Assembly (NCBI GenBank): GCA_017617065.1
Contig: JAFZWP010000013.1
Span: 186,001-250,000, forward strand
Reading direction: 5' to 3'
DNA from: Bacilli bacterium
Lineage (GTDB): Bacteria; Bacillota_I; Bacilli_A; ML615J-28; CAG-698
Length of the DNA stretch: 64,000 bases
Shown: positions 5,996 through 56,507 of the stretch, one piece after another
Layout of the letters: each line of letters starts with the position of its first letter
Position numbering within the stretch: the first letter of the stretch is position 1
Made by a program: the position numbers and the translations under genes
Notes under the pieces: model-generated
The model's database searches: none
Told to the model about the DNA's origin: nothing
The model's input: only the letters and a program-made list of their open reading frames with translations

Positions 5996-6160
5996 ATTAA
6001 GTATTTTTAATTTACCCAAGGGAAAATAAAAAAGTAGGCGCATAAAACGCCCACTAAAAAATCGCATACGTAAAATTTATTTTACAGTGACATTTATACC
6101 TACCAACGCAAGTCAGTCAGGTGAGAAGCGGGCGCTTCCTCTTTCCACATGGTTAAATTC
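5996..6160 (-). promoter_or_regulatory. infC leader (L20-type autoregulatory leader)
   Basis: About 165 nt of structured 5' UTR lie between the promoter and infC. On the minus strand it contains AAGCGCCCGCTTCTCACCTGA, which resembles the conserved core of Firmicute L20 leaders as I remember it, and ends in an intrinsic terminator at 6026-6055 before the coding region. In the known Bacillus system L20 binding favours termination upstream of infC-rpmI-rplT. The operon content supports the call; the exact L20 sites were not modelled. Confidence 0.75.
6026..6055 (-). terminator. Attenuator hairpin in the infC leader
   Basis: Stem AGTGGGCG/CGCCTACT in the RNA (6048-6055 with 6033-6040, one G-U pair), seven-base loop, then a U-rich run (6026-6033). 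It sits 45 bases upstream of the infC start, so it can only act as a premature terminator. Confidence 0.85.
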
Positions 6161-22558: not shown

Positions 22559-23023
22559 ATGGATCTAAAAATCATTCGTAAAAATAGAGGATTAACCCTA
22601 AATCAAGTAGCAAATATGACTGGTCTTTCTCAAAGTTTTCTAACAAGACTAGAAAATGGAGAAAGAGGACTAACTGTGGCAACAGCTAAAAAATTAGCAT
22701 ATGCTTATGATATTAGCATTAACGAGCTACTTAGGAATGATACATTTGATGCTAACTCAATCGAAAGCATGCGTCTTCAAATTAATGCTATTGATCAAGA
22801 AATGGCTATGCTATTTGAAAAAAGAATGAACTTAGCTAAGCATATTGGTATTTATAAAGTTAAAAATAATTTATTAATTACTGATGAGGCTAGGGAAGCT
22901 GATTTAGTTAAAAAGAATACATCATACATTAGCGATAAAGAAATAAAAAAATATTATCAAAAATTTATTTCTAATACTATTAAACTATCAAAAGAATATC
23001 AAATTAAAGTGACGGAACAGTAA
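22559..23023 (+). CDS. XRE-type HTH regulator fused to an AroQ chorismate mutase domain
   Basis: 154 residues. Residues 1-58 are a classical HTH_3/XRE DNA-binding domain (LTLNQVANMTGLSQSFLTRLENGERG). Residues 68-150 align along their full length with type II chorismate mutase, keeping every catalytic position of the E. coli domain: R72 (R11), R89 (R28), K100 (K39), D109 (D48), R112 (R51), E113 (E52), S144 and Q148 (Q88). The fusion may be a regulator that senses chorismate or prephenate, or a working enzyme that controls itself. It has a private promoter, operator and terminator, so it is monocistronic. No other shikimate-pathway gene is in the window. Confidence 0.88.
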   Translation: MDLKIIRKNRGLTLNQVANMTGLSQSFLTRLENGERGLTVATAKKLAYAYDISINELLRNDTFDANSIESMRLQINAIDQEMAMLFEKRMNLAKHIGIYKVKNNLLITDEAREADLVKKNTSYISDKEIKKYYQKFISNTIKLSKEYQIKVTEQ

Positions 23024-24308: not shown

Positions 24309-25109
24309 TTATTTTGAAAGCAATAATTTGTCATCTAAAACAACATCTGAATCATTTTCAAATTTCTTCAATAGTTGTTCAATTGTTAAGTTTTTCTTTT
24401 CTTCTCCTTTAATATCTAAAACAATATGACCACTATCGAACATAATTAGTCTATTACCATATTTAATAGCATCCCTCATATTGTGAGTAATCATTAAAGT
24501 AGTTAATTTGTTTTCTTCTACTACTCTACATGTTAAATCTAAAACCTTTGATGCCGTTTTTGGATCTAGAGCAGCAGTATGTTCATCAAGCAATAGAAGT
24601 TTTGGCTTCTTTAAAGTAGCCATAACTAATGTTACCGCTTGACGTTGTCCACCTGATAATAATCCTACTTTGTGTGATAATCTATCTTCTAAACCTAGAT
24701 TAAGCCCACTTAATGTCTTAACAAAAATTTCTTCGTTTTCTTTCTTAAAGCCCCAACGAAGAGTTCTTTTTTCGCCTCTTCTAATAGCTAATTCTAGATT
24801 TTCTGAAATTGACATATTGCTAGCAGTTCCCATCATTGGATCTTGGAATACTCTACCTAGATATTTGGCACGTTCATATTCTGGCTTATTAGTAACATCA
24901 ACACCATCAATCATAATAGTTCCACTAGTTGGTGCAAAAACACCACTAATCATATTCATTAATGTCGATTTACCCGATCCGTTTCCACCAATGATCGTTA
25001 CAAATTCACCATCTTCTATAGATAAGCTAATATCATCTAAAGCAAGTTTTTGAAATTCAGGTGCCTGGTCTAAATTAAAAATCTTAGTCAAGTTTCTAAT
25101 TTCTAACAT
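24309..25109 (-). CDS. ABC importer ATP-binding protein (TrpXYZ type, probably tyrosine)
   Basis: 266-residue ATPase powering amino-acid uptake. Walker A GGNGSGKST near 39-47, Q-loop VFQDP, signature LLSGGQRQAVTL near 149-160, Walker B LLLLDEHTAALD near 171-182, switch THN. The EHTAALDPKT variant is typical of the ATPases that pair with ABC_sub_bind (TrpX-like) binding proteins. Overlaps the permease gene by 14 bases and ends at a terminator. Substrate inferred from the Tyr-codon leader of the operon. Confidence 0.9.
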   Translation of the reverse strand: MLEIRNLTKIFNLDQAPEFQKLALDDISLSIEDGEFVTIIGGNGSGKSTLMNMISGVFAPTSGTIMIDGVDVTNKPEYERAKYLGRVFQDPMMGTASNMSISENLELAIRRGEKRTLRWGFKKENEEIFVKTLSGLNLGLEDRLSHKVGLLSGGQRQAVTLVMATLKKPKLLLLDEHTAALDPKTASKVLDLTCRVVEENKLTTLMITHNMRDAIKYGNRLIMFDSGHIVLDIKGEEKKNLTIEQLLKKFENDSDVVLDDKLLLSK

Positions 25110-26058
25110 CTTTAGCCACCTTCTTCTTGAATAATGGTTTTAAAACTGGGAATGCTAAAATGAAGGCTATTAAAATAGCTACAACTAAGTTAAGGTAATG
25201 ATCTACACCTAGTTTAATGGCAATAGCTTTTAATAAGAAGAATATAAATGATCCTACAATTATAGAAATCAACGCTAACTTAAATGTCTTCTTACCAAAG
25301 ATAATCTCGCCGATGATAATAGCAGCAAGGCCGATTACGATTGCTCCTTTTCCACAGTCCACATTAGCTGTACCAGTATTTTGGGCAAACAAGGCTCCAC
25401 TTAAAGCAACTAATCCATTAGATATAGCAAGGCCAATTATAATCATTACTGGTGTATTGATACCTTGGGCATTAGCCATCTTTTGATTATTACCTGTTGC
25501 ACGTAAGCTCATACCGAATTCTGTACCAAATAAATAATAAATGGTTACATAGCATACAATTACAAAAGCACCAGTGATTAGAATAACACTAACCTTACTT
25601 GAGATTGCTTTAGTAAAGTTTTCCATGCCAAAGTTGTCATGGAATAAGCTAAAGATACCATTATTAGCTCCTTTATAAACAGTATTATTAATAGCTAAAC
25701 TTGCCAAACTTCCAGAAGTTTTGCTAGCTAATCCTAAGACAACTAAGTTTATTGATACTAAAGCTGTCATAGTAATAATACCTGAAAGGATTGCAGGAAT
25801 CTTTAGTTTTGTATGAATTAGGCCGGTAACCGCCCCTGCAGCAAGTCCGCCAATCATTGCAATAATGGTAGCTATAATTGGTGGCACATTAATAAAGATT
25901 AACAAAGCCGCAATTGTAGCACCAAGGGGGAATGTTCCTTCAACGCTTAGATCGGCACAATCTAAGACACGATAAGAAATATATACCCCAAGTACCATTA
26001 TGCTCCATATCAAGCCCTGCTGAAGGCCAGATACTAATAAATTTATAATTATATCCAT
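25096..26058 (-). CDS. ABC importer permease (TrpXYZ type, probably tyrosine)
   Basis: 320-residue permease of the branched-chain-type (BPD_transp_2-like) fold with eight to nine hydrophobic helices; motifs LDCADLSVEGTFPLGA near 32-47 and SLRATGNNQKMANAQGIN in the cytosolic coupling region are typical of TrpY-like subunits. Sits 12 bases after the binding-protein gene and overlaps the ATPase gene. It forms the channel for the substrate delivered by the upstream lipoprotein. Confidence 0.9.
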   Translation of the reverse strand: MDIIINLLVSGLQQGLIWSIMVLGVYISYRVLDCADLSVEGTFPLGATIAALLIFINVPPIIATIIAMIGGLAAGAVTGLIHTKLKIPAILSGIITMTALVSINLVVLGLASKTSGSLASLAINNTVYKGANNGIFSLFHDNFGMENFTKAISSKVSVILITGAFVIVCYVTIYYLFGTEFGMSLRATGNNQKMANAQGINTPVMIIIGLAISNGLVALSGALFAQNTGTANVDCGKGAIVIGLAAIIIGEIIFGKKTFKLALISIIVGSFIFFLLKAIAIKLGVDHYLNLVVAILIAFILAFPVLKPLFKKKVAKDVRN

Positions 26059-26070
26059 ATAATTATCTTT

Positions 26071-27057
26071 CTATTCAATAACTCTATGAGCTTTTGCTAA
26101 TAATGCTTCAGGTAATGTAATACCTGCTTCAATTGCTCTTTTCTTATTAATAACAAGTTCGAAATTAGTTAATGTAGCAACAGCTAAGTCACCAACTTTT
26201 ACTTCACCCTTTAATACTTTAACTGCCATTTCACCAGTTAATTCACCTAAGTGTTTGTAGTTAATACCTAAAGTAATAATTCCACCACCATTAACTAATG
26301 CTTCTTCTCCACAAATAGTAACAACTTTGTTGTTATTACAAATTGTAGCAACAGTATTAATATTATCAGCAACGATATTATCTGTTGGGATATACATTGC
26401 ATCAACTTTTTCATTTTCTACAAGATCAGTTACAGCACTTTGTAAATCATTAACTGTAGAGATTTGTCTTTGAACTAAAGTAATTCCAAGTTCTCTGCAT
26501 TTAGCATCAGCTAAATTAGCTTGAACTAATGAATTAGATTCACTTGATGTAAATACCATACCAATCTTCTTTACTTCAGTTCCAAGTTCTAAAGCTAGAG
26601 CGATTTGATCAGCTACTGGATTCATATCACTAGTTCCAGAAATATTTCCACCAGGTTTAGTTGCACTAGCTATGATACCACTAGCAACTGGGTCAGTTAC
26701 AGCTGTAAATAAAATAGGAACATCGCTACCTTGCTTTTCAGCTTCTGCTTTTAAAACTAAAGCAACAGGTGTTGCAATAGCAAATACGATATCATTATCT
26801 TGAATTGCTTGTTCAGCCATTGTAGCTAAATCTTCAGATTTAGCTTGTGGATTGTAAATGTTAATCTTTACATTCTTTCCATCTACAAATCCGCCTTTTG
26901 CTAATGCTTCTACGATACCTTCTCTTGCGCTATCTAATGCGCCAGCTGATACGTATTGAACAATACCAATTCTAAATTCAACTTTCTTACAACCAACCAT
27001 GATTAACATCATGACCATAACAAATACTAGACAAAATAAACGTTTAATTGCTTTCAT
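26071..27057 (-). CDS. ABC substrate-binding lipoprotein (TrpX-like, probably tyrosine)
   Basis: Surface lipoprotein of the ABC_sub_bind family that captures the substrate. ATG at 27055-27057 lies after a perfect AGGAGG (27064-27069); a longer reading runs into the leader terminator and is not credible. The 328-residue protein begins with a signal peptide and lipobox MVGC (lipid-modified Cys near residue 25), then RIGIVQYVSAGALDSAREG, TAVTDPVASG and PGGNISGTSD, hallmarks of TrpX-type proteins. The family was named for predicted tryptophan uptake; here the leader peptide points to tyrosine. Confidence 0.9.
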   Translation of the reverse strand: MKAIKRLFCLVFVMVMMLIMVGCKKVEFRIGIVQYVSAGALDSAREGIVEALAKGGFVDGKNVKINIYNPQAKSEDLATMAEQAIQDNDIVFAIATPVALVLKAEAEKQGSDVPILFTAVTDPVASGIIASATKPGGNISGTSDMNPVADQIALALELGTEVKKIGMVFTSSESNSLVQANLADAKCRELGITLVQRQISTVNDLQSAVTDLVENEKVDAMYIPTDNIVADNINTVATICNNNKVVTICGEEALVNGGGIITLGINYKHLGELTGEMAVKVLKGEVKVGDLAVATLTNFELVINKKRAIEAGITLPEALLAKAHRVIE

Positions 27058-27078
27058 AATTATCCTCCTTTTAAGCAA

Positions 27079-27112
27079 ATAAAAAGTGTTACTACTTTGG
27101 AGTAATAACACT
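27079..27112 (-). terminator. Attenuator terminator before the ABC operon
   Basis: 11-bp stem with one G-U pair (27085-27095 with 27102-27112), loop of six, then five U residues, only 22 bases upstream of the binding-protein start. It must be bypassed for the transport genes to be transcribed. Confidence 0.9.
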
Positions 27113-27218
27113 ATAATATCTAAAAATATATTACTGTTGTTACTCCGATTATTTATATATCGTGTAACAACTTATTTCTTTTTGGCTTTGCAAAAAGACC
27201 AAGTGAAAATTACACGAT
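27099..27218 (-). promoter_or_regulatory. Tyrosine attenuator: mutually exclusive RNA stems
   Basis: Four minus-strand segments can pair in two ways. A = ATCGTGTAA at 27210-27218 (spans the leader-peptide stop); B = GTTGTTACACGAT at 27159-27171; C = GGAGTAACAAC at 27136-27146; D = TTACTCC at 27099-27105, the 5' arm of the terminator. A pairs with B over 9 bp, and C with D over 7 bp (antitermination); or B pairs with C over 8 bp plus CGAT/ATCG (termination). A ribosome stalled on the Tyr codons leaves A free and so favours antitermination; one that reaches the stop covers A. Logic inferred, pairing seen. Confidence 0.8.
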
Positions 27219-27272
27219 TTTCCTTGGGTAGTAATAATAGTAATAAGATTGTGCAAATGATCTAATTTTCAT
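27210..27272 (-). CDS. Tyr-rich regulatory leader peptide
   Basis: A 20-residue open reading frame, MKIRSFAQSYYYYYYPRKIV, with six consecutive tyrosine codons (TAT TAC TAT TAT TAC TAC at 27228-27245). Ribosome site GGAAGG lies five bases upstream of the ATG (27278-27283), and a promoter ends about 24 bases further upstream. The stop codon lies inside a segment that controls a downstream terminator. The run of Tyr is the classical signature of amino-acid attenuation (as with His in the his leader), here in front of a TrpXYZ-type importer. Confidence 0.88.
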   Translation of the reverse strand: MKIRSFAQSYYYYYYPRKIV

Positions 27273-27295
27273 AATTTCCTTCCAATCTTACTTAA

Positions 27296-27324
27296 AGTAT
27301 AATATCCCATAATTATACATGCAA
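27296..27324 (-). promoter_or_regulatory. Promoter of the Tyr-attenuated ABC operon
   Basis: TTGCAT (27319-27324), 17-bp spacer, TATACT (27296-27301) on the minus strand, placing the transcript start near 27289, just before the leader peptide's ribosome site. Confidence 0.8.
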
Positions 27325-27340
27325 GCATTTTTTTATTTTT

Positions 27341-27919
27341 TTATGAAAAAATCAAAGGTATAACCCCATAAGCTATTATTCCAAGCACCGCTGATATCAA
27401 AATAAATAATATTGGATGCATCTTTTTCTTAAATATTAGCATTAAACCAATTAAGATAACGCTAATGATAACTGATGCCCATCTAACTGATACAAATGTA
27501 TCATTATCAAAAACAAATAATTCATCAACTGCTAGGTTTGCTACAACCGCTAGAATCAAACCAATAACAACGGCTTTAATACCATTTAAGATGGCTTTAA
27601 CACATTTATTGCCAATTACTTTTTCATATATTTTAAAGATAGCAATAATGATAATAAATGAAGGAAGCACCATGCCCAAAGTCGCTACAAGTGATCCTAA
27701 AACACCAAATTGTCTAAAGCCAATAAATGTGGCAACATTTATAGCAAATGGGCCAGGTGTTGATTCAGATATTGCTAAAAAGTTAGCAAGTTCGGCCTCA
27801 TTTATCCAGCCTCGATTCATGACTTCACTTTCAATCATTGGTATCATGGCATAGCCACCACCAATTGTAAACAAACCAATTTTAAAGAATGTCCAGAAGA
27901 CCATAAGTAACTCTAACAT
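27341..27919 (-). CDS. Chromate transporter family half-protein (second of pair)
   Basis: 192-residue membrane protein of the CHR family, short (single-domain) type. The N-terminal signature FFKIGLFTIGGGYAMIPMIESEV (about 9-31) and the ESTPGPFAINVATFIGFRQFG motif are clear; five to six helices. Overlaps its partner by seven bases; such pairs work together as the two halves of a ChrA-type antiporter. Characterised homologues export chromate, but in gut or anaerobic bacteria the physiological anion is unknown. No terminator is visible before the next promoter. Confidence 0.9.
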   Translation of the reverse strand: MLELLMVFWTFFKIGLFTIGGGYAMIPMIESEVMNRGWINEAELANFLAISESTPGPFAINVATFIGFRQFGVLGSLVATLGMVLPSFIIIIAIFKIYEKVIGNKCVKAILNGIKAVVIGLILAVVANLAVDELFVFDNDTFVSVRWASVIISVILIGLMLIFKKKMHPILFILISAVLGIIAYGVIPLIFS

Positions 27920-56291: not shown

Positions 56292-56314
56292 CTTGTCACC
56301 TCCATGAATTGATG

Positions 56315-56349
56315 TAAAAAATCCTCTTTGCCAACTAAGGTAAAGAGGA
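56315..56349 (-). terminator. Attenuator hairpin before rplJ
   Basis: 7-bp stem CCTCTTT/AAAGAGG (56342-56348 with 56323-56329), 12-base loop, six U residues (56316-56321), upstream of the rplJ ribosome site: a leader terminator. Confidence 0.82.
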
Positions 56350-56462
56350 AGCACTTTTCAAATGCATGCATTAACATTCTTTAGAATCTTAATACATCCT
56401 TCTATACCTCGGTAGGAAATTAAGCCTCTTGGGCACCTACTGTCTACGGCAGATAATCTGTA
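56350..56462 (-). promoter_or_regulatory. L10 leader (ribosomal protein L10-L12 binding RNA)
   Basis: On the minus strand the stretch from 56442 to 56407 contains AGTAGGTGCC, AGGCTTAATTTCC and CTACCGAGGT in the order of the conserved L10 leader. In known cases L10(L12)4 binds here and represses rplJL. The leader ends in an attenuator (56315-56349). Confidence 0.85.
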
Positions 56463-56507
56463 TTTCTATTTTTATTTATTTGTTTTTATTTATTATTATT
56501 TAAAATG

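Follow-up and report, generated by a model that had tools for sequence, protein, structure and literature searches.

The 64,000-nt stretch of DNA analysed here (the window) belongs to a 1.73 Mb draft genome of 24 contigs from an order of Bacilli of which 43 genomes were compared. Its minus strand carries a TrpXYZ-type importer operon, composed of a TrpX-type lipoprotein predicted to bind tyrosine (26071..27057; PF04392, best PDB match 6hni, with a Glu/Tyr signature), a TrpY-type permease (25096..26058; PF02653) and a TrpZ-type ATPase (24309..25109; PF00005). Scored against the TrpX equivalog NF041285, the lipoprotein obtains 259.3 bits, which is below the curated cutoff of 390. The nearest named relative is the Bacilli MAG RGIG10139 from yak rumen, whose TrpX is 91% identical.

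Leader gene and RNA segments

Re-reading of the minus strand, together with the upstream regions of relatives, locates a leader peptide gene, MKIRSFAQSYYYYYYPRKIV*, at 27210..27272. It is preceded by the ribosome site GGAAGG (27283-27278) and contains six consecutive Tyr codons, TAT TAC TAT TAT TAC TAC (27228..27245), the putative sensor. As in known attenuators, a short reading frame thus has its own ribosome site and repeats the regulatory codon several times in a row. A candidate promoter, TTGCAT-17-TATACT (27296..27324), has a good -10 box (5/6) and a weak -35 box (3/6). It was absent from the list of a generic scan at these positions, and most relatives show TTGxxx-17/18-TATAAT at the matching place. 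In many relatives (L009, L011, L012, L005, L007, L016 and L017), cre-like palindromes of the TGTAAACGTTTACA type lie 5' of this promoter, some 85 nt ahead of the first leader codon, and suggest a possible control by CcpA. None were seen there in the genus of the window.

Directly 3' of the Tyr run, the motif CCAAG (27223..27227) forms the 5' arm of a hairpin, P1. Its 3' arm CTTGG (27203-27199) and the following T-rich tract occupy 27192..27203. Both arms and the tract are among the most conserved parts of the element, and the initial annotation had not mentioned them. P1 with its T-rich tract is probably an RNA polymerase pause hairpin. Many bidirectional terminators with P1-like letters, CCAAG...CTTGGCTTTTT, occur in G003, G004, G012 and G017. 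The pattern CCAAG-N-CTTGG-NN-TTTT was tried across the order as an element finder and discarded; besides elements it mostly retrieved unrelated sites, including bidirectional terminators.

Five further segments, all on the minus strand, account for the alternative pairings. Segment 1, ATCGTGTAA (27210..27218), includes the leader stop codon and is the exact complement, over 9 nt, of TTACACGAT (27167-27159); it is supported by a permutation test and by its geometry. Segment 2, GTTGTTACACGAT (27159..27171), is a partner of segment 1 or 3, as covariation and the permutation test indicate. Covariation likewise supports segment 3, GGAGTAACAAC (27136..27146), which pairs with 2 or 4, and segment 4, AGTGTTATTACTCC (27099..27112), which pairs with 3 or 5. 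Segment 5, GTAGTAACACT with a U tract (27077..27095), is the 3' half of the terminator according to both a terminator scan and covariation. A small hairpin, CTTTTTG/CAAAAAG (27178..27197), appears in the fold and is weakly conserved.

The antiterminator GGAGTAA:TTACTCC comprises 7 bp and the anti-antiterminator GTTGTTAC:GTAACAAC 8 bp. The terminator, AGTGTTATTAC/GTAGTAACACT followed by TTTTT, has 12 pairs (expectation from shuffles in the terminator scan, 0.2) and is the sole terminator-like site within 26900-27500. Folding of the 241-nt leader RNA yields -57.6 kcal/mol (z = -5.1), a value reached by none of 200 shuffles. The initial annotation had proposed the six-Tyr leader with ribosome site and promoter, the stop codon within a 9-nt segment with an exact downstream partner, the two competing helices of 7 and 8 bp and the terminator with its U-run; every one of these was found again.

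Conservation of the element

A TrpX homologue is encoded in 28 of the 60 relatives searched. Most TrpX genes of the order have a Tyr-rich leader upstream, followed by the same segment layout; the exceptions are G005 and G018, in which the element precedes aro genes, and copies in G014 and G023 with a Trp T-box. In the latter (L027 and L030), short overlapping ORFs around CCnACATGAACTTT are located past the Trp T-box, with the stop TGA overlapping ATG. A covariance model detects the element in 24 of the 43 genomes of the order, plus G062 in one further family.

The alignment consists of 22 elements of the order, all with a Tyr-rich leader (22/22). Terminator-state helices are 94.2% paired with both-side changes in 10 pairs, and their covariation score of 0.215 (0.116 after shuffling) was matched in none of 500 shuffles. 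The antiterminator is 96.4% paired; its covariation support is weaker because its letters hardly vary. Two mutually exclusive structures, an antiterminator and an intrinsic terminator, are hence conserved with covariation, as in an attenuator. The 1:2 helix was scored by a permutation test, since indels prevent column scoring. Segments 1 and 2 of one species fit each other far better than those of different species: their duplex energy is -358.9 kcal/mol for own partners and -194.7 +/- 15.0 for permuted ones, with 0 of 20,000 permutations as good, and a non-redundant set (n = 21) gives -298.8 versus -160.7 +/- 13.8. For L020, L024 and L025, pairing was no better than permuted. Overall, the orthologous upstream regions (22 aligned; 24 of 43 genomes with the element) keep both the Tyr runs and the covarying stems that the initial annotation had proposed to look for.

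Beyond the order, the element is conserved at sequence level in two other families. A second covariance model, R2, was built without the Tyr codons and finds G217 (family f10), which had not been used in its making; the ORF of this element, MFNKNLQTQVYYYYYYQGDIMI, has six Tyr codons. Further families of the class show Tyr-rich leaders and terminators with unrelated letters before TrpX homologues (L195, L213, L224, L237, L239), and the full architecture recurs, in other letters, in the Bacillales MAG L177. L206 and L241 have a Tyr-rich leader, with no terminator reported by the automatic scan; in L006 and L007, terminators missed by automatic finding are visible by eye. An order-wide search for further targets with the codon-free model gave no convincing new gene.

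Two variants were observed in passing. G010 (L143:3926-6256) carries two TrpX genes in tandem, each under its own Tyr leader attenuator. In L237 and L238 (G368 and G344, single-contig genomes of one genus), the leaders before TrpX, QQWSYYYYFS and QQWSFYYFS, combine Trp with Tyr; TyrA over cutoff is missing in four genomes of this genus.

Ribosome position and choice of helix

The spacing between sensor codons and segments is nearly constant. Counted from the first nucleotide of the last Tyr codon, the P1 arm lies at +3 to +9, segment 1 starts mostly at +11 to +13 (median +12), which in nearly all members is about where a stalled ribosome would end, and the leader stop codon has a median position of +24, in most cases inside segment 1. 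Measured from the first base of the A-site codon, a stalled ribosome protects approximately 12-13 nt. It would therefore melt P1, whose 5' arm falls within the footprint, and leave segment 1 free.

For modelling the switch, the ribosome footprint was masked and the RNA was folded either up to segment 4 or at full length. When the ribosome is placed on the last Tyr codon, as in a stall, the shorter RNA gives 0.91 for 1:2, 0.91 for 3:4 and 0.09 for 2:3; when it is placed on the stop codon, the values are 0.85 for 2:3 and 0.34 for 3:4. In 25 of 25 cases, a ribosome on the stop codon gives a higher 2:3 value than a stalled one. In silico, it is hence the position of the ribosome that decides which helix forms; the initial annotation had suggested such a comparison of stems with and without a block at the leader stop region. 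In the full-length RNA of the window, the terminator reaches 0.32 in the stalled state, 0.97 at the stop codon and 0.97 without a ribosome. At full-length equilibrium, many relatives favour the terminator even when stalled (mean 0.64), so that a kinetic switch is needed there. For L176, the modelled stall does not yield 1:2.

We consider the element, at a probability of roughly 90%, a ribosome-mediated transcription attenuator which senses charged tRNA-Tyr in front of a predicted tyrosine importer. With sufficient Tyr-tRNA, the ribosome would reach the stop codon and cover segment 1; segment 2 would then pair with 3 and segment 4 with 5, and RNA polymerase would terminate. When Tyr-tRNA is short, the ribosome would stall in the Tyr run. 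On the last Tyr codon, it would cover the 5' arm of P1 and leave segment 1 free just past its edge, such that 1 could pair with 2 and 3 with 4, no terminator would form and the importer operon would be transcribed. For the RNA of the window, the model predicts that termination is the default as long as no ribosome is present. The leader with its segments, their covariation and spacing, the preferred folds and the pocket residues come from computation, and stalling, pausing at P1, read-through and transport are inferred. Attenuation at Tyr codons, as put forward in the initial annotation, gains strong support at the sequence level from Tyr runs that are conserved within different flanks, covarying helices, the ribosome spacing and an aro operon that ends in tyrA.

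Sensed amino acid, substrate and known systems

The genes that follow the element are aroB-aroC-aroEK-aroF-aroA-tyrA in G005 and aroB-aroC-aroE in G018 (names rest on NCBIfam or Pfam, except for aroF, aroA and the aroE kinase part, which were assigned by eye). Together with the Tyr pocket signature of the importers, the tyrA-ending operon indicates that the sensor codons agree with what the downstream genes make or import. G014 (L142:2015-3364) harbours an element with Cys codons in its leader (FYCAYCICF), followed by a 33-codon ORF and cysK. Since this ORF resembles a remnant of a lipoprotein signal and cysK may be transcribed from a promoter of its own, a role of cysteine is only a tentative reading. 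It is possible, if somewhat doubtful, that the element acts as a reprogrammable codon-sensing cassette, in which the same RNA frame was moved between operons and the sensor codons were exchanged (Tyr for import or synthesis, Cys near cysK in G014).

The best PDB match of the TrpX in the window, 6hni, is CD0873 from C. difficile, which prefers tyrosine through Glu263 and Tyr279 (PMC6816091). Equivalents of both residues are present in the window TrpX and in nearly all homologues linked to a Tyr leader; in that of G217, Thr replaces Glu. Other pockets vary with their regulator: Val is found under the Trp T-boxes of L027 and L030, Glu in four binding proteins under Tyr (UAC) T-boxes, and Glu plus Tyr in two with Phe T-boxes. 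The Glu and Tyr pair is also common across the family, including homologues without a recognised regulator. Being this widespread, and occurring under two Phe T-boxes, it fits Tyr or Tyr/Phe and is no proof of Tyr alone. We predict from the pocket residues, which are evidence independent of the leader, that the importer of the window transports tyrosine, as the initial annotation assumed. Many importers that are now annotated for tryptophan may likewise carry tyrosine, a view that the findings support. The assignment is not the first of its kind, as a tyrosine-binding member of the family had already been solved.

In the leaders of several relatives, Phe codons occur alongside the Tyr codons, and Phe may therefore contribute to the signal. 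A general aromatic sensor that responds to Tyr and Phe together would explain the many leaders with Phe codons, the Phe T-boxes before two binding proteins with Glu and Tyr, and L023, whose Phe-rich leader RSYFFSYFR goes along with an Ala in the pocket as in the Phe binder VC_1101. We regard it as unlikely for the window, where the leader has six Tyr codons and only one distant Phe, and where Phe is handled by a pheS T-box in the same genome.

In TnaC and Erm leaders, the peptide itself stalls the ribosome. The FPR found after the Tyr run of many relatives would suit such an arrest, by YYYFPR and perhaps with binding of free tyrosine. This is very improbable, as the conserved feature is the nucleotides CCAAG, which are read FPR, FQE or NQG depending on the member while the pairing with CTTGG is kept; FLR with CTAAG also retains this pairing, and sensing of free Tyr with the same wiring would turn import on at high Tyr. 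That the Tyr run is a mere by-product of the RNA, with control by a ligand or protein, is hardly credible: TTATTAC in the run of many members does resemble segments 2 and 4 and is complementary to segment 3, but L177, L195 and L241 keep Tyr codons despite other letters, L024 and L025 keep Tyr/Phe codons without TTATTAC, the distance from codons to segments is constant, and no Rfam riboswitch matches the element.

The preferred reading, a Tyr-codon attenuator, is consistent with the regulatory inventory of the genome. Searches revealed T-boxes before valS, pheS (UUC), thrS, trpB (UGG), hisS and alaS (genes named by eye) and no Tyr T-box; upstream of the importer operon there was no match to the T-box family RF00230, nor to any other Rfam family at the element. 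The genome has aroC and no TyrA match, which fits a dependence on tyrosine import. In family f1, 16 genomes have the element before trpX, and 15 of these lack TyrA over cutoff; in family f2 the pattern is mixed, and the association is suggestive only. With the attenuator as a guide, tyrosine import versus synthesis in uncultured Bacilli may become predictable from sequence.

The element shares with the enterobacterial his, trp and phe attenuators a run of regulatory codons in a leader peptide, alternative helices and an intrinsic terminator, and its many-segment alternation is most like that of his. It differs in sensing Tyr, in its occurrence in Bacilli and in a segment 1 that overlaps the stop codon inside the conserved CCAAG/CTTGG hairpin; we know of no enterobacterial Tyr attenuator. 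Leader-peptide His attenuators were predicted for Clostridia and Bacilli, Erysipelotrichales among them, groups in which T-boxes are the common device (PMC9413887); those belong to histidine biosynthesis, whereas tyrosine and a TrpXYZ-type importer are concerned here. The uORFC-13-1 motif, likened by its description, also places a uORF and a terminator before a shikimate gene, in this case Acholeplasma aroF, with a Phe instead of a Tyr codon proposed as sensor in another genus and before another gene (PMC8632094). T-box control of TrpXYZ in S. suis (PMC9382623) acts on the same target operon and the same class of signal, uncharged tRNA, which is read directly by the RNA rather than via a translating ribosome. 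Tyr T-boxes before TrpX were also found in Clostridia in the present analysis. In the position that the attenuator occupies before this transporter, other bacteria carry a Tyr T-box, such that two unrelated RNA mechanisms appear swapped for one task.

Leader-peptide attenuation is classical; its His versions had been predicted for Firmicutes, and a family member that binds Tyr was known. What is new is an attenuator based on Tyr codons, the lineage in which it occurs and its placement before genes of both import and synthesis. The initial annotation called such a leader unusual in low-GC Gram-positive bacteria. This holds for tyrosine, for which no earlier description was found in the open-access literature; for leader-peptide attenuators as such, the His and uORFC-13-1 cases are precedents.

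Near the importer, the window also encodes a 154-aa protein (22559-23023) in which an XRE-type HTH is combined with a chorismate mutase type II domain, possibly an aromatic-sensing regulator. Leaders of the ribosomal proteins L10 and L20 are located at 56308-56467 and 6020-6149, respectively.
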